Origin: Alphaproteobacteria bacterium
GTDB lineage: Bacteria > Pseudomonadota > Alphaproteobacteria > SMXS01
DNA length: 64,000 nucleotides
Reading direction: 5' to 3'
NCBI GenBank assembly: GCA_028284945.1
Contig: JANQQJ010000024.1
Span: 124,001 to 188,000 of the forward strand
Shown: one piece after another, positions 32,347 through 52,347 of the stretch
Position numbering within the stretch: the stretch's first letter is position 1
Layout of the letters: each line of letters opens with the position of its first letter
The notes under the pieces: generated by a model
The model's database searches: none
Told to the model about the DNA's origin: nothing
The model's input: the letters and a program-made list of their open reading frames with translations, nothing else
Made by a program: the position numbers and the translations under genes

Positions 32347-33021
32347 TTAGGCTTTCAGCCGCTTGCTGGAAATTTTGTAGAGTTGGTTCTGGCCGATCAT
32401 CCAGGCATGAAACGGCTCGCGCAAAAGGAAGGCAAAAGCCGGGTTCAGCACATCAAGGCCGCCGGTATAGGCGCCGAATGACGGCAGAATCAGCCGTGAT
32501 CCGTCACTGACGAAACAGGGACGCCGAAGGCTGCGTCCCCGCACGCGCACCCGTGCGGCGGGGTGCAGATGCCCCGCCACTTCGCCTGGCTGCCAGCCTT
32601 CTTGCGGCAAGTGCCGGAACAGCAGCGTGCCGATTTCGAGCATATCGGTCACCCGCCCGCCCAGATGCCGTGGCGGTTGCGGATCGTGGTTGCCCTCGAT
32701 CCAGACCCAGTCGCGGGCCGCCGTTAGTGCCGCAATCCGCCCAATCTCATGATCCGTCAGGCGCCCCGCAGCCTCCAGGTCATGAAAGCTATCACCCAGA
32801 CAGACAACCACCGCCGGATCATGCGCGGCGATCACGGTCTCCAAACGGGTGAGCGTTTCGCGCGTGTCGTAGGGCGGAATCAGTTGGCCCTTTTGCGCCT
32901 GCGCGGAGCCCTTCTCGAAATGCAGATCGGCAACCACCAGCAGCCGTTCGTCCGGCCACCACATGGCCCCAGAAGGATCGAACGCCACATGCGCGCCGTT
33001 GATGCCAATCGAGACGGTCAT
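32347..33021 (-). CDS. pdeM: Ligase-associated DNA-damage response metallophosphoesterase PdeM
   Basis: 224 residues of the calcineurin-like phosphoesterase fold with all metal motifs: ADLHFEKGS, LGDSFHD, EGNHDPQ and GHLHPAARV. Matches the PdeM nuclease that is part of the four-gene ligase-associated DNA-damage cassette. The ATG at 33021 follows AAGGGTGG. In related genomes pdeM adjoins the lhr helicase. Here the two are separated by LysE-, cysteine-synthase- and TauE-like genes, although both still point leftwards. Confidence 0.9.
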   Translation of the reverse strand: MTVSIGINGAHVAFDPSGAMWWPDERLLVVADLHFEKGSAQAQKGQLIPPYDTRETLTRLETVIAAHDPAVVVCLGDSFHDLEAAGRLTDHEIGRIAALTAARDWVWIEGNHDPQPPRHLGGRVTDMLEIGTLLFRHLPQEGWQPGEVAGHLHPAARVRVRGRSLRRPCFVSDGSRLILPSFGAYTGGLDVLNPAFAFLLREPFHAWMIGQNQLYKISSKRLKA

Positions 33022-33090: not shown

Positions 33091-33696
33091 ATGGAGAGCT
33101 TGCTGGCTCTAGTCGCCGCGACCCTTGTCCTCGTTGCAATACCAGGGCCAAATGTTGCGCTAATCGTTGCCAATAGCATTCGAGACGGGCGGGGCGCCGG
33201 ATTGAGGACGGTGGCCGGGTCCACGATCGGCGTTGGGGTGCAATTGCTGCTGATTACCATCGGCATTGCCGCCATGATCGAACTGGTTGCCGGCGTCCTG
33301 GTCTGGTTGAAATGGATCGGGGTTGCATACTTGCTGTTTTTGGGCGTTCGGACATGGCAAGAACCAGCCTCAGACCTTACCGATGCCACCGTCAAGCACG
33401 GCCAGGGTTGGCGCGAACTATGGTCCGGCCTGGGCGTTGCGGTCGTAAACCCGAAGACACTTTTGTTTAACGCGGCTTTCCTGCCGCAATTCGTTTCGCC
33501 AGGACCCGACGCTCCGGCCATGATGATGCTGGTCAGCGTGGTGTTTTTGGCAACAGTCTTTATCGGCGACACGATCTGGGCACTGGCCGCAAGCGCTGCG
33601 CGTCCGGTTCTGATCCGGTATGGCCGACTGCGCAATCGGATCACGGGTGGATTCCTGATTGGTGCGGGCATTGGTCTCGCGCTCTCGCGACGGTAA
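33091..33696 (+). CDS. LysE-family amino-acid exporter
   Basis: 201 residues with six predicted membrane helices. The N-terminal signature is AIPGPNVALIVANSIRDGR, with GLGVAVVNPKTLLFNAAFLP in the middle. The family exports amino acids and derivatives (lysine, threonine, homoserine, cysteine). ATG at 33091 follows GGGAGATTGGA; a much longer open frame upstream lies antisense to pdeM and is not credible. It faces a cysteine-synthase-like gene four bases away, and could export the product or an intermediate of that enzyme. Confidence 0.9.
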   Translation: MESLLALVAATLVLVAIPGPNVALIVANSIRDGRGAGLRTVAGSTIGVGVQLLLITIGIAAMIELVAGVLVWLKWIGVAYLLFLGVRTWQEPASDLTDATVKHGQGWRELWSGLGVAVVNPKTLLFNAAFLPQFVSPGPDAPAMMMLVSVVFLATVFIGDTIWALAASAARPVLIRYGRLRNRITGGFLIGAGIGLALSRR

Positions 33697-33700
33697 GCCA

Positions 33701-34633
33701 TCAATATTTGAGCCCGGTGTCGCAGAGGACCGTAACAACGCGGGCATCAGGCCCCAACCGCCTGCTCTCTAGAAGTTTAACCGCCGCGCAGACATTGGCC
33801 GCCGCCGAATAGCCAACATAGAGCCCTTCTTCTACCGCCAGACGCCTGTGCCAGAGGACCGCCTCTTCATCTGTTACGGCAATTGATTCGTCCATCAAAT
33901 CCGGCTGCCAATGCGGCGGTACAGACCCATAGCCCGTGCCCTGAATGACATGCTGCGGTTTGGTAACGGGCTTACCGGCAAGCACAGCAGCACCCGCAGG
34001 CTCGACCGCCGCGCAGAGAATGGAAGGGTGCCGTGATTTCAAATAGCGCGAAACACCAACAAACGTTCCACCCGAGCCGACCGCCACAACAAAGGCATCG
34101 AGGTCACCATCGGCCGCCGCCCATATCTCGGGGCCTGTCCCCTCTTCATGGGCGAGCACGCTACCAGGGTTGTTGAACTGGTCGACATAGTAGGCGCCCT
34201 GTTCGACGGAAATGCGCTTAGCCACATCCACCGCCGCTGCAATGTCCGCGCCCGTGACCTTGCCAGGCTCGCCGTCGACCTGCGGTACGAGGATGACCTC
34301 AACGCCCAGCTCACGCAGGATCTTAACGCGGGCCGGGCTGTTGCCTTCGGACATGGTGAGCGTGAGCGGATGGCCGAGAGCCGCACAGACCACCGCGAGC
34401 CCTGCGCCCATATTGCCGCTGGTCATTTCGACCACCGGCTGGCCGGGCACGAGGTCTCCCCGCGCCAAAGCGCGTTCGATGATCTTGAGCGCTGCGCGGT
34501 CCTTGATGCTTCCGCCAGGATTGAGGAACTCGAGCTTGGCCAGCACCTCCCCAGGTCCGCGATGGACTTTGTGTAACGGCACCAACGGGGTGTCGCCGAT
34601 CGCTGTCAGTACACCGCCTTGCCGGTCACCCAT
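33701..34633 (-). CDS. Cysteine-synthase-family PLP enzyme
   Basis: 310 residues, fold type II PLP enzyme. The lysine that binds PLP is Lys44 in NPGGSIKDRAA; TSGNMGAGLA binds the substrate and VGSGGTFVGVSRYLK the PLP phosphate. It most resembles O-acetylserine sulfhydrylases or cystathionine beta-synthases without the CBS domain. QGTGYGSVPP is the usual CysK-like C-terminal loop. Its ATG (34633) lies inside the end of a short lhr-like remnant, in the sequence CTGAATGG, exactly as the TauE-like gene's start lies inside the real lhr end. Confidence 0.9.
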   Translation of the reverse strand: MGDRQGGVLTAIGDTPLVPLHKVHRGPGEVLAKLEFLNPGGSIKDRAALKIIERALARGDLVPGQPVVEMTSGNMGAGLAVVCAALGHPLTLTMSEGNSPARVKILRELGVEVILVPQVDGEPGKVTGADIAAAVDVAKRISVEQGAYYVDQFNNPGSVLAHEEGTGPEIWAAADGDLDAFVVAVGSGGTFVGVSRYLKSRHPSILCAAVEPAGAAVLAGKPVTKPQHVIQGTGYGSVPPHWQPDLMDESIAVTDEEAVLWHRRLAVEEGLYVGYSAAANVCAAVKLLESRRLGPDARVVTVLCDTGLKY

Positions 34634-34715
34634 TCAGCTCTCCCACGAACTCGTCTGCGACTTTTTCGAGCAGCACCTCATTCACTGAGCTCTCTTCAAA
34701 GTTCCAACTGGCCAT
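34626..34715 (-). pseudogene. Remnant or duplicate of the lhr 3' end (29-codon frame)
   Basis: A 29-codon frame with its own ATG (34715) and stop (34628-34626). Its last 18 residues match the C-terminus of the Lhr helicase at 35432: 13 of 18 identical, and 42 of 52 bases match (34631-34682 against 35437-35488), with six of the ten differences at third codon positions. The region further upstream does not match. In both places the next gene starts inside the shared CTGAATGG. It begins seven bases after the TauE-like stop. It may be a scar of recombination with a relative's lhr gene, or a translation-coupling leader for the cysteine-synthase-like gene. Confidence 0.75.
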
Positions 34716-34722
34716 GACTACC

Positions 34723-35439
34723 CTAAACAAAGACCAGTATCGCGCCCAAGGCGATCAGGACGGCGTAGAGAACGCGGGTGAACAGGCTCACCGGCAGTTT
34801 TTGTCCGAGCCAACGGCCGGCAATCAGCGCCGCAAGCGCAGCGGGTATCGCATACAGATAGAGCACCCCGACTTGAACCGTCCAAAGGCCTGCCAGCCCA
34901 TGTCCCGCAGCGATGAAAAAGGCAGCGGGGAGAAAATAACCCTGCAGCGTGCCACGGAACCGATCGGGTGACCAGCCTCGGAAGGCGCCATAGATGACGA
35001 GAGGGGGCGCGTTCATATTGAAAGCGCCGCCCAGAACGCCGGCAATGAATCCGAACGGGTAAGACCAGGCGTCAGCGTGAAGCCGGGGGGTAGAGACCTT
35101 CAAGAGGCTGTAGACGCCAATCAGGATCAGCAACCCACCCAGCACTTGCCGCCCCGTCCGCTCTGGCAGAACCTCCAACATCAAAATCCCAACAGCGATG
35201 CCAGGCACTGTAGCTACCAATAACCGCAGGGCAGACGGCCACTCGACATGGGCGCGGTCCAGCCAAAGCAGCAGCACGATGTTCGTTCCCATCACGAGTG
35301 CAACGAGCGGCGTCGCGGTCGTCAAACCGACGCCCAGCGCCAACAACGGCATCGCGACAAGCCCAGCGCCAAATCCAAAAGCACCATGAACGGCTGACGC
35401 AAAGGCCAACACCGCGACCGTCACGGCCAAACTATCCAT
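34723..35439 (-). CDS. Sulfite exporter TauE/SafE (TSUP) family protein
   Basis: 238 residues with seven to eight membrane helices in two repeats. The pattern GFGAGLVAMPLLALGVGLTTATPLVAL at the start (given by parts) and GFIAGVLGGAFNMNAPPLVIYG in the second half define the TSUP family, which moves sulfonates, sulfite or other small anions. Its start codon overlaps the end of lhr by eight bases, so translation is coupled to the repair helicase, an odd pairing. Together with the cysteine-synthase-like and LysE-like genes it may form a small sulfur or amino-acid passenger set. Confidence 0.88.
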   Translation of the reverse strand: MDSLAVTVAVLAFASAVHGAFGFGAGLVAMPLLALGVGLTTATPLVALVMGTNIVLLLWLDRAHVEWPSALRLLVATVPGIAVGILMLEVLPERTGRQVLGGLLILIGVYSLLKVSTPRLHADAWSYPFGFIAGVLGGAFNMNAPPLVIYGAFRGWSPDRFRGTLQGYFLPAAFFIAAGHGLAGLWTVQVGVLYLYAIPAALAALIAGRWLGQKLPVSLFTRVLYAVLIALGAILVFV

Positions 35440-37978
35440 TCAGTTCTTCCATGAAGTCGTCGGCGACTTCTTCAAGCAGGGCTTCATTGGCTTCACCGGC
35501 AATGGGCACTTTGCTGATTTCAAGCATGACCGGCACAGCAAGTGGCGAAATTCGTTCCAAGTGTTTCACCATCAGGCTGTCTGGCGCCTGAACACGCTCC
35601 AGCAAGCCGCGCATGCGCGCCAGATCAAGCAGGCCGGAGGACACATCCTCGCGGGTGGCCTGCAACAGAATATGATCGGGTTCGTGGCGCACCAGCACTT
35701 CATAAATCAGGTCAGAGGAAATGTTCATCTGCCGCCCGGTCTTTTCCTTGCCGGGATGCTTGCGGTCAATCAGCCCGGCAATGGTCGCGACATTACGGAA
35801 TGTCCGCTTGAGCAGATTGGATTCGGTCATCCAGTCATCAAGTCCGTCATCGATGCCTTTGTCGCTGAACAGCGCATTCATATCGGCCCGTGACAGGTCA
35901 CCCAGCGCCCAGATCGCCAGCGCATAATCATTGGCCATGAACCCCATGGGTTTGAACCCGGCCTCTTCCAGCCGTTTGGTCAAAAGCATGCCCAGCGTCT
36001 GATGCGCCAGGCGCCCCTCGAATGGATAACAAGTCATGTAGAACTTGCGGGCACGGGGAAAGGTCTCAATCAGCATCTGGTCGGCGCGCGGAATACCGGA
36101 TTTATCGCGCTGCAGCTCAAGCCACCACCGTACCTGCCCGGGAAGTCCGGTCCAGGTCTTGGGATCGGCCAGAATGGCCCGGACCCGTTCGGCCAGAAAG
36201 GTCGAGAGTGGGAACTTGCCCCCCTGATAGGACGGCACCATCGGTTCCTTATCGTTGGTGCGCGAGGCAAAGGCCTCTGCTTCGGCCAGCCCCTCAAACC
36301 GCCAGACCTTGCCCGCGAACAGGAACGTATCGCCGGGGCGAAGCTGTTCGATGAACCACTCTTCTACTTCGCCGATGGACGCCCCGGCACGGCCCACGGG
36401 CCTGCCACCCACTTGCGAGATACCCTGCCGGACCCGTTTCTTGCCTGCCGCGACCGCGCGCAGCTTCAGCATGGGCGCTTCAACGATGGTGCCGGCATTC
36501 AAGCGGTACTGCTGGGCCACCTTTCGCGACGCGACGGTCAGCCGTCCGTCCGCCAGTTTTTCCAGCTTCTTGTATTGATCATAGCGGCGCAGGGCGTAGC
36601 CGCCGGTGGCGACGAAATCGACCACCCGCTCGAACGTCTCGTAATCAAGCTCAGCGAAGGGTGCTGCTGCGGTCACTTCGTCATAGAGGTCAGGCATCAG
36701 AAACGGCTCGCCACACGCCCGGCCCAGCACATGCTGGGCCAGCACATCCAGCCCGCCGGGCCGTGGCAGGTCACCATCATGGATGCCTTCGGCGATGGCG
36801 TTCTTGGCCGACTGGCACTCCAGCACCTCGAACCGGTTGGACGGCACAAAGAGCGCATTGGATGGTTCATCCAGTCTGTGATTGGCGCGGCCAATCCGCT
36901 GCATCATCCGCGACGACCCCTTGGGCGCGCCGAGCTGGATCACCAGATCAATGGCGCCCCAGTCCACCCCCAGTTCGAGCGTCGACGTGCAGACCACGGC
37001 GCGCAGATCACCGCGGGTCATGGCGGCTTCCACCCGGCGGCGTTGTTCCACAGACAGCGACCCGTGATGAAGCGCGATGGGCAGTTGATCTTCATTGAGG
37101 TGCCACAGATTTTGAAACGTCATTTCCGCCTGGGAGCGTGTGTTGACGAAGACCAGCGCGCATTTCACCTGCTTGATCGCCGCCATGATGTCTTCAGCCG
37201 CATAGGCTGAGCTGTGCCCCGACCAGGGCACGCGCGCCTGACTGTCCAATACAGAGACCTGCGGCGGTGCGCCCGCATCGGCCACGATCAGGTCAGCCAA
37301 AACCGGCGTGTCTTTTTCCTGCGGCATCAAATAGCGGCACAACCGGTCCGGATCGGCCACCGTAGCCGACAGGCCGATTCGGCGCATATGGGGCGCGATA
37401 GCCGACAGGCGGCCCAGCGCAAGCGCCAACAGGTCACCCCGTTTGGTGTTTTCCAGCGCGTGAAGCTCATCAATGATGATCGCCTGAACGGTCTTGAACA
37501 GCGCCCGGCCATCCCGGTGCGCCAAGAGCAACGAAACCTGTTCCGGCGTGGTCAGCAGAATTTCCGGTGGGTCGCGGCGCTGGCGGGTCTTTTTCGCCGA
37601 TGGCGTATCGCCGGTCCGCGTCTCGATTCGGATGTCGAGCCCCATTTCAGCCACTGGCGCTTCGAGATTACGCGCAATATCAACAGCGAGCGCTTTAAGC
37701 GGCGAGATATAAAGCGTGTGCAGACCGCGTCGGCGTTTCAGCGGGTGCTGTTCGTGATCACCGATAATCTCAATCAAGCTGGGCAGGAACCCCGCCAAGG
37801 TCTTGCCCGCGCCAGTAGGCGCGACCAAGAGTGCAGACCGTCCTTCGGCTGCTGCGTCAATTAGATCGAGCTGATGACGGCGCGGCGCCCAGCCGCGTGC
37901 CGCGAACCAGTCCGTCACCACCGCCGGAAGGGCGGTGTCGGCTTTCGGCTTGACGGCACGGGTCTCCATAGGGCTCAC
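35432..37978 (-). CDS. lhr: Ligase-associated DNA-damage response DExH helicase (Lhr type)
   Basis: 848 residues, superfamily 2 helicase. Walker A APTGAGKT (53-60), DELH box (170-173), SAT motif (LSATVADPD), and motif VI QRIGRANHR are seen, then the winged-helix and Lhr-core domains. It is the helicase component of the four-gene ligase-associated system with the exonuclease and ligase that diverge from it. Start at GTG 37978, with an ATG three codons later as an alternative. The shared upstream region holds a LexA-type box 11 bases from the start. The 3' end overlaps a TauE-like gene and has a partial duplicate at 34626-34715. Confidence 0.93.
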   Translation of the reverse strand: MSPMETRAVKPKADTALPAVVTDWFAARGWAPRRHQLDLIDAAAEGRSALLVAPTGAGKTLAGFLPSLIEIIGDHEQHPLKRRRGLHTLYISPLKALAVDIARNLEAPVAEMGLDIRIETRTGDTPSAKKTRQRRDPPEILLTTPEQVSLLLAHRDGRALFKTVQAIIIDELHALENTKRGDLLALALGRLSAIAPHMRRIGLSATVADPDRLCRYLMPQEKDTPVLADLIVADAGAPPQVSVLDSQARVPWSGHSSAYAAEDIMAAIKQVKCALVFVNTRSQAEMTFQNLWHLNEDQLPIALHHGSLSVEQRRRVEAAMTRGDLRAVVCTSTLELGVDWGAIDLVIQLGAPKGSSRMMQRIGRANHRLDEPSNALFVPSNRFEVLECQSAKNAIAEGIHDGDLPRPGGLDVLAQHVLGRACGEPFLMPDLYDEVTAAAPFAELDYETFERVVDFVATGGYALRRYDQYKKLEKLADGRLTVASRKVAQQYRLNAGTIVEAPMLKLRAVAAGKKRVRQGISQVGGRPVGRAGASIGEVEEWFIEQLRPGDTFLFAGKVWRFEGLAEAEAFASRTNDKEPMVPSYQGGKFPLSTFLAERVRAILADPKTWTGLPGQVRWWLELQRDKSGIPRADQMLIETFPRARKFYMTCYPFEGRLAHQTLGMLLTKRLEEAGFKPMGFMANDYALAIWALGDLSRADMNALFSDKGIDDGLDDWMTESNLLKRTFRNVATIAGLIDRKHPGKEKTGRQMNISSDLIYEVLVRHEPDHILLQATREDVSSGLLDLARMRGLLERVQAPDSLMVKHLERISPLAVPVMLEISKVPIAGEANEALLEEVADDFMEELNG

Positions 37979-38046: not shown

Positions 38047-39075
38047 ATGAAACGAGTGATGGTCACGTTTTCAGACATCCTGATGCCGACCAAGGCCGGG
38101 CTCTATTGCCCGCCGGGGGACTTCTATATCGATCCCACGCGCCAGGTGGACAGGGCCGTGGTCACCCATGGCCATGCCGACCATGCGCGTGCCGGTCATG
38201 GTGCGGTACTGGCGACCCGCCAAACGCTCGCAATCATGGGGTCGCGTTATGGCGCCAATTTCACCCCGGCGCAGCAGACTGCCGCGCTGGGTGAACGCCA
38301 CAAGATCGGCGATGCCACAGTCTGGCTCGCCCCCGCCGGTCATGTGCTGGGCAGCGCCCAAGCGGTGATTGAAGCCAAGGGTGTGCGCATCGTCGTCTCC
38401 GGCGACTATAAGCGCCGCCGCGATCCGACCTGCGCCCGGTTTGAGCCCGTACCCTGCGATGTTTTCGTAACCGAAGCGACCTTTGCCCTGCCTGTTTTCC
38501 GCCACCCGGATGACACGGGCGAAGTAGCCAAGGCGCTGCATATGCTGGAGGTGTTTCCAGAGCGTTGCGTGCTGCTGGGGGCCTATTCGCTGGGCAAGGC
38601 ACAGAGGCTGATCGGTCTCGCGCGCGAAGCCGGGCATGACGCACCGATCTATCTGCATGGCGCCGTTGAAAAGCTGTGTACCCTCTATGAAACCCTGGGG
38701 GTACGGCTGGGCGATCTGCGCCCGGTGATGAAAGCCGAGAAGGACGAGATGCGCGGGCACCTGATCGTCGCGCCGCCGCAGTCGCTCAATGACAAATGGT
38801 CCCGGCGCCTGCCGGACCCGGTCGCTGCCTTTGCCAGCGGCTGGATGCGGGTACGGGCGCGGGCCAGGCAACGCGGTGTTGAATTACCGCTGATCATTTC
38901 GGATCACGCGGACTGGGATGAACTGACCACGACAATTGAAGAGCTGCGCCCGGAGGAAGTCTGGGTCACCCATGGGCGCGAAGATGCGCTGGTGCACTGG
39001 GCCGGCACGCAGGGCATCAACGCGCGTCCGCTATCACTGGTCGGTTATGACGAGGAAGGCGGGGACCACGGATGA
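38047..39075 (+). CDS. Ligase-associated DNA-damage response exonuclease (metallo-beta-lactamase fold)
   Basis: 342 residues. The MBL metal motif THGHADHARAG (His41, His43, Asp45, His46) is present, and the C-terminal half carries the ISDHADWDEL histidine typical of beta-CASP-related DNA exonucleases. It belongs to the same cassette as lhr, pdeM and the ligase. It is divergent from lhr, and its stop overlaps the start of the ligase gene (ATGA). The ATG at 38047 or 38059 could serve as start; neither has a strong ribosome site. Confidence 0.92.
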   Translation: MKRVMVTFSDILMPTKAGLYCPPGDFYIDPTRQVDRAVVTHGHADHARAGHGAVLATRQTLAIMGSRYGANFTPAQQTAALGERHKIGDATVWLAPAGHVLGSAQAVIEAKGVRIVVSGDYKRRRDPTCARFEPVPCDVFVTEATFALPVFRHPDDTGEVAKALHMLEVFPERCVLLGAYSLGKAQRLIGLAREAGHDAPIYLHGAVEKLCTLYETLGVRLGDLRPVMKAEKDEMRGHLIVAPPQSLNDKWSRRLPDPVAAFASGWMRVRARARQRGVELPLIISDHADWDELTTTIEELRPEEVWVTHGREDALVHWAGTQGINARPLSLVGYDEEGGDHG

Positions 39076-40652
39076 ACCGTTTTGCGGCCCTTCTCGACCG
39101 ACTCGCCTATGCATCAGGCCGCAACGACAAGCTGGCCCTGATCAAAGATCATTTCGCTACCGTTTCTGATCCGGACCGTGGTTATGCCCTCGCCGCGCTG
39201 ACCGGCGGGCTGGATTTCAAACACGCCAAACCGGCGCTGATCCGGGGCCTTGTCGAGGAGCGGACGGACCCGGTGTTGTTCCGCCTGTCCTATGATTATG
39301 TGGGCGATATGGCAGAGACCATCTCGCTGTTATGGCCGGCCAAGCATGGCGTCAACCGGGTGCCGGAATTGACTGAGATCGTTGAGACCCTGCGTGAAAC
39401 GTCCAAGTCGGACATGCCGGGGCTGATCGCCGGCTGGCTGGACGCACTTGATGAAAATGGCCGCTGGGCGCTGATCAAACTGATTACCGGGGGCCTGCGA
39501 ATTGGGGTCTCATCACGCCTCGCCAAAACCGCGCTGGCGCAATATGGCGATCTCGACCTCAAGGAGGTGGAAGAAATCTGGCACGGGCTGGAGGCGCCCT
39601 ATATCGATCTCTTCGCCTGGGCAGACGGCACGGGACCGCGCCCCGAACCCGATATTGCTGCTCCCTTCCGGCCCGTGATGCTGGCGCATCCGGTTGAAGA
39701 TGCCGATTTTGCCAAGCTGAGCCCGGCCGATTTCCGCGCCGAGTGGAAGTGGGATGGTGTGCGGGTACAAGCGGTTGCCGCAGGCGGAGAACGCCGGCTT
39801 TACAGCCGCACCGGCGAAGACATGACCGGTACCTTTCCCGACCTGATCGAGGCAATGAATTTCGACGCCGCCATCGACGGCGAGTTGCTGGTGGTGCGTG
39901 ACGGACAGGTCGCGCCATTCGGTGACCTGCAAAAACGGCTCAATCGCAAGACAACATCAAAGAAGCTCCTGAACGAGTTTCCCGCCGCAATCCGCGCCTA
40001 TGATCTGTTGTTTGAAAGCGGCGAAGACCTGCGCATCCTGCCTTTCGATGAACGCAGGAAACGGCTGGAGAACTGGGTGGAACGCCTGAACCATCCGCGC
40101 ATCAGCCTGTCGCCCCTAATCGATTTTCAAAGTTTCGACGATTTAGACCGCATCCGGAATGACCCCGCTGCCCAAAGTATTGAAGGGGTGATGCTGAAGC
40201 GGGGCGATAGCGTTTACGAAGCCGGGCGTCCGAAGGGTCCGTGGTTCAAATGGAAGCGGGACCCGTATCTCGTTGATGCGGTGCTGCTTTATGCCCAGCG
40301 CGGCCACGGCAAACGCTCCAGCTTCTATTCCGACTATACGTTCGGCGTGTGGCGCGACGGCGAACTGGTCCCTGTCGGCAAGGCCTATTTCGGATTCACC
40401 GACGCGGAACTGAAACAGATCGACAAGTTCGTCCGCGACAATACCGAAGACAGTTTCGGCCCGGTGCGGCAAGTCACCCACGAGCCCGACCACGGGCTGG
40501 TCTTCGAAGTGGCATTTGAAGGATTAAACCGATCAACCCGGCACAAATCCGGCCTGGCCATGCGCTTCCCGCGGATTCACCGCATCAGATGGGACAAACC
40601 CCCGCACGAAGCCGACAAGATCGAAGCGCTGGAAAGCCTTTTACCCGCCTAA
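39072..40652 (+). CDS. ATP-dependent DNA ligase, cassette type
   Basis: 526 residues. N-terminal DNA-binding domain (about 1-200), nucleotidyltransferase domain with the adenylated lysine Lys226 in EWKWDGVR, then LYSRTGED, DGELLVV, EGVMLKRG and FKWKRDP, and a C-terminal OB fold. It matches the LigC/cisplatin-group ligases of the ligase-associated DNA-damage response. It is translationally coupled to the exonuclease. The main replicative NAD-dependent ligase would be elsewhere in the genome. Confidence 0.93.
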   Translation: MNRFAALLDRLAYASGRNDKLALIKDHFATVSDPDRGYALAALTGGLDFKHAKPALIRGLVEERTDPVLFRLSYDYVGDMAETISLLWPAKHGVNRVPELTEIVETLRETSKSDMPGLIAGWLDALDENGRWALIKLITGGLRIGVSSRLAKTALAQYGDLDLKEVEEIWHGLEAPYIDLFAWADGTGPRPEPDIAAPFRPVMLAHPVEDADFAKLSPADFRAEWKWDGVRVQAVAAGGERRLYSRTGEDMTGTFPDLIEAMNFDAAIDGELLVVRDGQVAPFGDLQKRLNRKTTSKKLLNEFPAAIRAYDLLFESGEDLRILPFDERRKRLENWVERLNHPRISLSPLIDFQSFDDLDRIRNDPAAQSIEGVMLKRGDSVYEAGRPKGPWFKWKRDPYLVDAVLLYAQRGHGKRSSFYSDYTFGVWRDGELVPVGKAYFGFTDAELKQIDKFVRDNTEDSFGPVRQVTHEPDHGLVFEVAFEGLNRSTRHKSGLAMRFPRIHRIRWDKPPHEADKIEALESLLPA

Positions 40653-50474: not shown

Positions 50475-51356
50475 TCAGTAAAGCCGCTTATGATCCGGCA
50501 GGGGCCGCAGCCGCGGATACATCGAACTGCGGAGCGGCTCCCCGGGCTCAAGTTGCAGGGAGAGCCCCGGAATACGCGGTGCAATAGGACGGGACGGGGG
50601 CCGGGCCGCATAACAAAGATCATCGCCGTAACAGCGAACGGTGATCGCCCGGCGTTGACTGCCGGGTGCGGTCTGCCCGCCACCATGCAGCACCGACGGA
50701 TGCGCCATGATCACATCGCCCGGTTCAATGTCCCACGAAACGATGTTCCATTTTGATCGGTCCGCCTCGATATCCGGCAAAGGCGGCAGGTCGTCATCGT
50801 AATAGGGCAACGTCGGATCCGTCGAAACCTCCGCCGGGTTGAAGCCGTCATACATCACGCCATGATGGGTGCCGGCGACATATTCCAGGCATTCTTCTTT
50901 CGGCAACGGGTCGAGCGAAATCCACATGGACGCGATCTGTTTGCCGGCAATGGGCCAATAGGATGTGTCCTGATGCCACGGCGTTCGCCCACAGCCGCCG
51001 CGCGCCTTGATGAAAAACTCATCTGCATAGTACCAGACGTTTTCCGACCCGATCAGCGCGCCGATCATGTCGGCAATAGGCGAATCATAGACCAGTCGCT
51101 GGATTTCCGGCGTGACGTCAAAATTACGGATAGTTTCGAGAAACTCGTCTTCCCGGTCGGCATAAAATTTGTGTTTGGTCTGGCCCCCATCGCTCATCAC
51201 CCGGGCAAGACCTAACTCGATCAATTGCAGCCAGTCAGGATGAAGCGCCTGTTTTAGGAAGACGACCCCGTCACGTTCAAACTGCGCCTTTAAGTCGGGC
51301 GTGATCCGGCTGCGCCAGTCATAGGGATTATCGACTTGGTCCGCGACCGCTGACAT
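50475..51356 (-). CDS. Phytanoyl-CoA dioxygenase family protein A
   Basis: 293 residues, Fe(II)/2-oxoglutarate-dependent oxygenase. Iron ligands His128, Asp130 (PWHQD) and His224 (VLHGGG); the 2-oxoglutarate arginine lies in RRAITVR. The family hydroxylates branched acyl-CoAs or various small lipids. The start used is ATG 51356, with AGGAGAG eight bases upstream; an ATG two codons earlier is too close to it. It is a tandem paralogue of the gene at 51368-52255, about two thirds identical by eye, and follows it with eleven bases between. Confidence 0.9.
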   Translation of the reverse strand: MSAVADQVDNPYDWRSRITPDLKAQFERDGVVFLKQALHPDWLQLIELGLARVMSDGGQTKHKFYADREDEFLETIRNFDVTPEIQRLVYDSPIADMIGALIGSENVWYYADEFFIKARGGCGRTPWHQDTSYWPIAGKQIASMWISLDPLPKEECLEYVAGTHHGVMYDGFNPAEVSTDPTLPYYDDDLPPLPDIEADRSKWNIVSWDIEPGDVIMAHPSVLHGGGQTAPGSQRRAITVRCYGDDLCYAARPPSRPIAPRIPGLSLQLEPGEPLRSSMYPRLRPLPDHKRLY

Positions 51357-51367
51357 GACCATCTCTC

Positions 51368-52255
51368 CTAGGATACTTGCCGGTGTTCGGGCAGGGGCCG
51401 CAGGCGCGGATACCAGGGGCTGCGCAACGGATCGCCGGGTTTCAGCATTTGCGAGACACCCGGCGTGTAGGGCGAGGTCGGCCGCGATGCGGGCCGCGCG
51501 CCATAGGTAATATCGTCGCCATAGAGCCGGATGGTAATGGCCCGGCGCTTGCCATTCGCGCCCGTTGGGCCGCCGCCATGCAGCACCGCCGGATGCAGGA
51601 AGATCACGTCTCCCGGCTCAATATCCCATGAAACGATGTTCCACTTGTCCCGCTCTGCTTCGATGTCCGGTAGCGGTGGCAAGTCTTCCCCGTAATAGGG
51701 TTTGGTTGGGTCTTCCGAAACGAACTGCGGATCGAACCCGTCATACCGGGTGGTCCGGTGGGTGCCCGGGATCATTTCCAGGCACTCTTCTTTGCGGAGC
51801 GGGTCAAGCGAAACCCAGATGGATGCGACCTGCGACCCTTCCATAGGGAAATAGGGCATGTCCTGATGCCACGGCGTGCGGCCGCATCCTGCGCCATCCT
51901 TGATGAAAAACTCGTCGGAATAGTACCAGATATTCTCTGACCCAATGAGTTGACCGATCATATCGGCAATAGGCGATTCATAGACCAGCCGCTGGATCTC
52001 CGGCGTGACTTCCATATTGCGGACGGTTTCCAGGAACTCGTCATCCTGTTCGGCATAGAACTTGAACTTAGCCTGTGCGGCGTTGCCCATCACCCGGGCC
52101 AACCCCATCTCGATCTGGGCCAGCCATTCCGGATGGAGCAACTGCTTCATGAAGACGCAGCCGTCTTGAGCGTATTGTTCTTGAATGTCCGGCGTGATCC
52201 GCTCCTGCCAGTCATACGGATCGGTCTGTGCCGATGCTTCTGCCTCCTGCGGCAT
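51368..52255 (-). CDS. Phytanoyl-CoA dioxygenase family protein B
   Basis: 295 residues with the same fold as its downstream neighbour. Iron ligands His130, Asp132 and His226 are conserved, and the segment PPLPDIEA is shared almost unchanged. Differences cluster in the loop after HQD (MPYFPMEGSQ against TSYWPIAGKQ) and in the loop around residue 165, both near the likely substrate site, so the two copies may take different substrates. GGGGAGA precedes the ATG at 52255; a longer upstream frame has no ribosome site. Confidence 0.9.
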   Translation of the reverse strand: MPQEAEASAQTDPYDWQERITPDIQEQYAQDGCVFMKQLLHPEWLAQIEMGLARVMGNAAQAKFKFYAEQDDEFLETVRNMEVTPEIQRLVYESPIADMIGQLIGSENIWYYSDEFFIKDGAGCGRTPWHQDMPYFPMEGSQVASIWVSLDPLRKEECLEMIPGTHRTTRYDGFDPQFVSEDPTKPYYGEDLPPLPDIEAERDKWNIVSWDIEPGDVIFLHPAVLHGGGPTGANGKRRAITIRLYGDDITYGARPASRPTSPYTPGVSQMLKPGDPLRSPWYPRLRPLPEHRQVS

Positions 52256-52347
52256 CAATCGTCTCCCCAATATCCCGCTGACTCTATGTGAGCCGCTGGT
52301 CCGGTCAAGCCTCAAGCACCAGCCCGACTGGCCAAATCCAATCAACG

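Follow-up and report, generated by a model that had tools for sequence, protein, structure and literature searches.

The window, by which we mean the whole 64-kb stretch of DNA analysed, harbours a complete set of ligase-associated repair genes, with all four products scoring above the cut-offs of their families (TIGR04120-04123). The lhr gene (positions 35432..37978, minus strand) encodes a ligase-associated DNA damage response DEXH box helicase of 848 residues, counted from a GTG codon, and its product scored 1070.8 bits against TIGR04121 (cut-off 850). A ligase-associated exonuclease (38047..39075, TIGR04122) and a cisplatin damage response ATP-dependent DNA ligase (39072..40652, TIGR04120) are encoded on the plus strand and provide the repair cluster context. 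The fourth gene, pdeM, encodes a ligase-associated endonuclease (32347..33021, minus strand; TIGR04123, 234.7 bits, cut-off 150) and is parted from lhr by approximately 2.4 kb. Within this interval lie a TauE/SafE-family permease gene (34723..35439, minus strand; PF01925, 94.1 bits), a second, diverged 3′ end of lhr that we refer to as the remnant (34629..34682, minus strand), a gene for a cysteine synthase-like PLP enzyme (cysK-like; 33701..34633, minus strand; PF00291) and, in antisense orientation, a LysE-family exporter gene (33091..33696, plus strand; PF01810). In the source genome, pdeM now has its own upstream region.

The functional 3′ end of lhr itself, NEALLEEVADDFMEELNG (35435..35488, minus strand), includes the start codon of the TauE-like gene, and the remnant reads NEVLLEKVADEFVGELNG. 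When aligned without gaps, the stretches 35437-35488 and 34631-34682, which have the same orientation and are 806 bases apart, are identical at 42 of 52 bases. At the protein level, 13 of 18 residues (72%) are shared. The match spans the last 18 codons and ends sharply upstream, the likeness stopping at N. The remnant is part of a 29-codon open frame, MASWNFEESSVNEVLLEKVADEFVGELNG followed by a stop codon (34626..34715, minus strand), in which it is preceded by 11 unrelated codons, and here MASWNFEESSV is found where lhr has EISKVPIAGEA. The frame begins 7 bases past the stop codon of the TauE-like gene, and its own stop overlaps the start of the cysK-like gene. Each lhr end immediately precedes a downstream gene of its own, and the two genes are unrelated: CTGAATGGATAG in the lhr 3′ end contains the start of the TauE-like gene (35439), and CTGAATGGGTGA in the remnant that of the cysK-like gene (34633). 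The recurrence of the lhr end and the position of both starts had been reported in a first-pass annotation of the window, and our results agree with it on these points. The longest exact run common to the two ends, 8 bases, is located at the start-codon overlap, and the pair was missed by our repeat finder because a 9-base exact seed is required.

The next-best site for the lhr 3′ end in the 64-kb window matched at 29-31 of 52 positions. In 30 simulated sequences of 64 kb each (first-order Markov), the best match was 26-30 of 52, far below the 42 observed, and a chance match was rejected. A DNA search of the source genome with the remnant returned the remnant itself and matches of 19 bases or fewer only. 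A protein search of the same genome gave no further copies of the lhr end, and no third lhr end was found ahead of pdeM.

We compared the region downstream of lhr with that of 85 distinct lhr loci from other genomes, none of them congeneric. The source genus is represented by one genome, its family by ten and the sister genus by seven. pdeM was found downstream of lhr in 79 of the 85 loci; some of them have only approximately 1.5 kb of downstream sequence, so that failure to find pdeM does not in every case mean that the gene is lacking. In all seven genomes of the sister genus, lhr ends with CTGAATGGCTGA (CTTAATGGCTGA in one) and overlaps pdeM, whose predicted start codon falls within that end. 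These sequences support pdeM as the gene that directly followed lhr in the ancestor, with the lhr stop and the pdeM start overlapping. A TauE-like, cysK-like or LysE gene or a second lhr end was present at none of the 85 loci from other genera, nor was any intermediate arrangement found among them. Given the adjacency of pdeM elsewhere and the absence of TauE-like and cysK-like genes, we conclude that roughly 2.4 kb entered between ancestrally overlapping genes, and the comparison supports the view that the genes between lhr and pdeM are an insertion specific to the source genome among the genomes compared. Gaps of approximately 0.5-1.2 kb between lhr and pdeM were observed in distant genomes (L053, L024, L025, L057, L060 and L067), with no second lhr end there.

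The TauE-like and cysK-like genes are rare or divergent within the class. One family of the class contains the nearest relatives of the TauE-like protein, at 38-41% identity. The best relatives of the cysK-like protein were at 50% identity in one of 337 genomes and at approximately 60% on two alphaproteobacterial plasmids. The stretches fetched around the nearest relatives of both contained no lhr, pdeM or partner gene. In a search for donors by DNA similarity among plasmids, the matches were confined to ordinary homologues of lhr and cysK (60-80% identity), with no common context. The cysK-like gene is a third, divergent paralogue in the source genome. Its product falls far short of the scores that NCBIfam requires for CysK, CysM or cystathionine beta-synthase, and may belong, along with the TauE and LysE transporters, to a small group concerned with sulfur or amino acids. 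The LysE-family gene, which runs antisense to the repair operon, has a GC3 of 0.485, whereas the neighbouring genes have 0.68-0.73; it is likely a separate, more recent arrival.

The remnant agrees with the lhr end of its own genome at 43 of 54 bases, with the ends of the sister genus at 34-37 and with all other lhr ends at no more than 31. It is nearest to its own lhr and then to the sister-genus ends, and so appears to derive from the lhr of the source lineage; this supports the identification of the second copy as a genuine lhr 3′ end of the same family. The own lhr end agrees with those of the sister genus at 35-39 of 54 bases. The own end and the remnant, at similar distances from this outgroup, would fit lhr ends of two related lineages evolving in parallel. 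The differences had been described in the first-pass annotation as mostly synonymous or conservative. This description fits the third codon positions, which account for 7 of the 11 differences in the 54 bases, but not the changes on the remnant branch. Among the differences that could be polarised, which are small in number, two fall on the own branch and three on that of the remnant, and the latter (E to K, M to V and E to G) are all replacements, the sites concerned being invariant in the other members of the family that were compared. Small as these numbers are, they suggest that the remnant was a functional lhr end for most of its history and was then released, the three replacements pointing to later relaxation. 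The own lhr is highly diverged from the sister genus over its last 60 codons, which may be ordinary C-terminal drift.

The sequences ahead of the start codons were examined for Shine-Dalgarno-like sites. In the 20 bases upstream of the cysK-like gene, which lie within the remnant (34634..34653, minus strand), GGGAG is present six bases ahead of the ATG, and the duplex with the anti-Shine-Dalgarno sequence was calculated at -7.3 kcal/mol, approximately the best 5% of random 20-mers. Considering the strength of this site, the remnant most likely serves as the predicted start region of the cysK-like gene, with a Shine-Dalgarno-like site and a start codon. The lhr end of the sister genus has GGAG seven bases before the ATG of pdeM (-6.4 kcal/mol). 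The own lhr end has a weak Shine-Dalgarno sequence ahead of the TauE-like gene (-3.3), whose initiation would depend on translational coupling to lhr. The 29-codon frame is preceded by a weak AGGG, and the displaced lhr end is possibly translated as a putative 29-residue coupling peptide.

We consider the arrangement lhr-TauE-remnant-cysK to be a displacement scar, brought about by homology-anchored illegitimate recombination between related strains, and assign a probability of roughly 0.66 to this reading. As read from the sister genus, the ancestral lhr 3′ end doubled as the start region of the following gene, providing both its ribosome-binding site and its start codon. The comparison of loci shows that foreign genes then entered between lhr and pdeM. 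On at least one occasion, a related strain would have contributed DNA in which an lhr end was followed by a different downstream gene. One side of the incoming DNA would have paired by homology with the resident lhr or pdeM, the other side being joined without homology. Instead of being lost, the older lhr end and the gene behind it would have been pushed downstream, so that lhr is now followed by TauE, the old lhr end and cysK. Going by this order, the lhr end with TauE may have been the last to arrive. As each lhr end comes with its own ATG and Shine-Dalgarno-like site, translation of cysK would still start from the displaced end.

This reading develops a proposal of the first-pass annotation, recombination or insertion at the lhr 3′ end between strains, no integrase being seen. 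A source genome-specific insertion and a genuine second lhr end argue for the proposal, as an inference, although no donor was found. Neither a tyrosine nor a serine integrase was present on the 316-kb contig, as the annotation had held for the window, and no tRNA was found in the window. Genomes with a single junction, in which lhr is followed directly by the cysK-like or the TauE-like gene, had also been anticipated, but amounted to 0 of the 85 distinct lhr loci and were absent from the contexts fetched around the nearest TauE and cysK relatives. The suggestion that the repair gene marks a new kind of hotspot for insertions likewise found no support, as other lhr loci, including those with wide lhr-pdeM gaps, have no second lhr end.

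Other explanations for the two lhr ends were weighed. They might be the attachment sites of a decayed integrative element with its site in the lhr 3′ end, which supplied a replacement end with mostly silent changes and later lost all but the TauE-like gene. The geometry resembles that of e14 in icd, with its duplicated gene end of 165 bp containing 12 exchanges (PMC11148124; PMC6379469). However, merely 0.8 kb or so lies between the two copies, the contig is devoid of an integrase, no identical crossover core is visible in a pair whose longest common run is 8 bases, and a second lhr end was found at lhr in none of the 85 other loci, which makes a decayed element unlikely. We consider it quite improbable that the 3′ end of lhr and its downstream gene region were duplicated in place as a tandem repeat, with later divergence of one copy and replacement of the intervening gene. 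Such a duplication would be in accordance with the two copies being mutual closest relatives among all sequences compared, but TauE and cysK are unrelated, so that no duplicated gene remains. In addition, the 19% divergence implies great age, and an end that had never been functional should have decayed beyond the 34-37 of 54 bases still shared with the sister genus.

The remaining alternative, that the 29-codon frame is an independent small gene resembling lhr by chance or convergence, draws on its being open, on the weak AGGG upstream and on the 11 codons that are not lhr-like. Against this, 42 of 52 bases are identical, compared with 26-30 in simulated sequences. A search of 385 genomes of the class with the 29-residue protein detected its own lhr end (E 0.01), the lhr ends of the sister genus and noise only, and the frame had no match in Pfam. 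A conserved small gene was thus rejected, and we regard an independent origin of the frame as extremely improbable. Both a conserved small gene and a chance-level match had been named in the first-pass annotation as findings that would speak against its interpretation; with neither observed, the lhr origin stands.

The proposed displacement scar at lhr is a fresh instance of an already known type of scar. The same geometry and mechanism have been described for sequential displacement arrays in Vibrio type VI secretion (T6SS) effector-immunity loci and for the orphan 3′ ends of Rhs genes (PMC5361080). There too, a new 3′ module is joined to a conserved gene by one-sided homology, and the old 3′ end persists further downstream together with the gene behind it, with no integrase. 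Unlike these arrays, the lhr locus consists of a repair helicase, metabolic and transport cargo and a single displaced end, and has no toxin-immunity logic. Site-specific integration of e14 into icd leaves a comparable duplication, with the 3′ end partly duplicated beyond the insert, mainly silent differences and an intact gene product (PMC11148124, PMC6379469), whereas at lhr there is no integrase or identical core, the copies are 0.8 kb apart and the displaced end lies exactly at a gene start. In homology-facilitated illegitimate recombination (PMC3240628), one homologous anchor and one non-homologous joint likewise add DNA without a mobile element. That process has been defined experimentally with known donors, whereas the one proposed for lhr is deduced from the scar.

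The lhr scar reveals no new mobility system. It provides a small, clean case of gene gain between tightly overlapping repair genes with no visible mobile element, and bears mainly on how inserted genes gain immediate expression, an old gene end apparently being reused as a start region. A more speculative and rather doubtful extension is that gene ends overlapping a start are portable translation-start cassettes: coupling would give immediate expression to any incoming gene placed behind a copy of the lhr end, and selection would preserve the displaced end as a 29-residue coupling peptide for the older cargo. If true, overlapping gene pairs would be favoured places for gaining genes without an integrase.

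A search for similar scars in approximately 1.08 Mb of the genome detected other close direct repeats. The two inspected on contig C35 (C35:188953 and 50.5-52.3 kb of the window) proved to be tandem paralogous genes. The latter region (50475-52345) contains adjacent paralogous genes for proteins of 295 and 325 residues, with a strong direct repeat at a spacing of 893, and judging from their sequences, the products look like phytanoyl-CoA dioxygenase-type enzymes.
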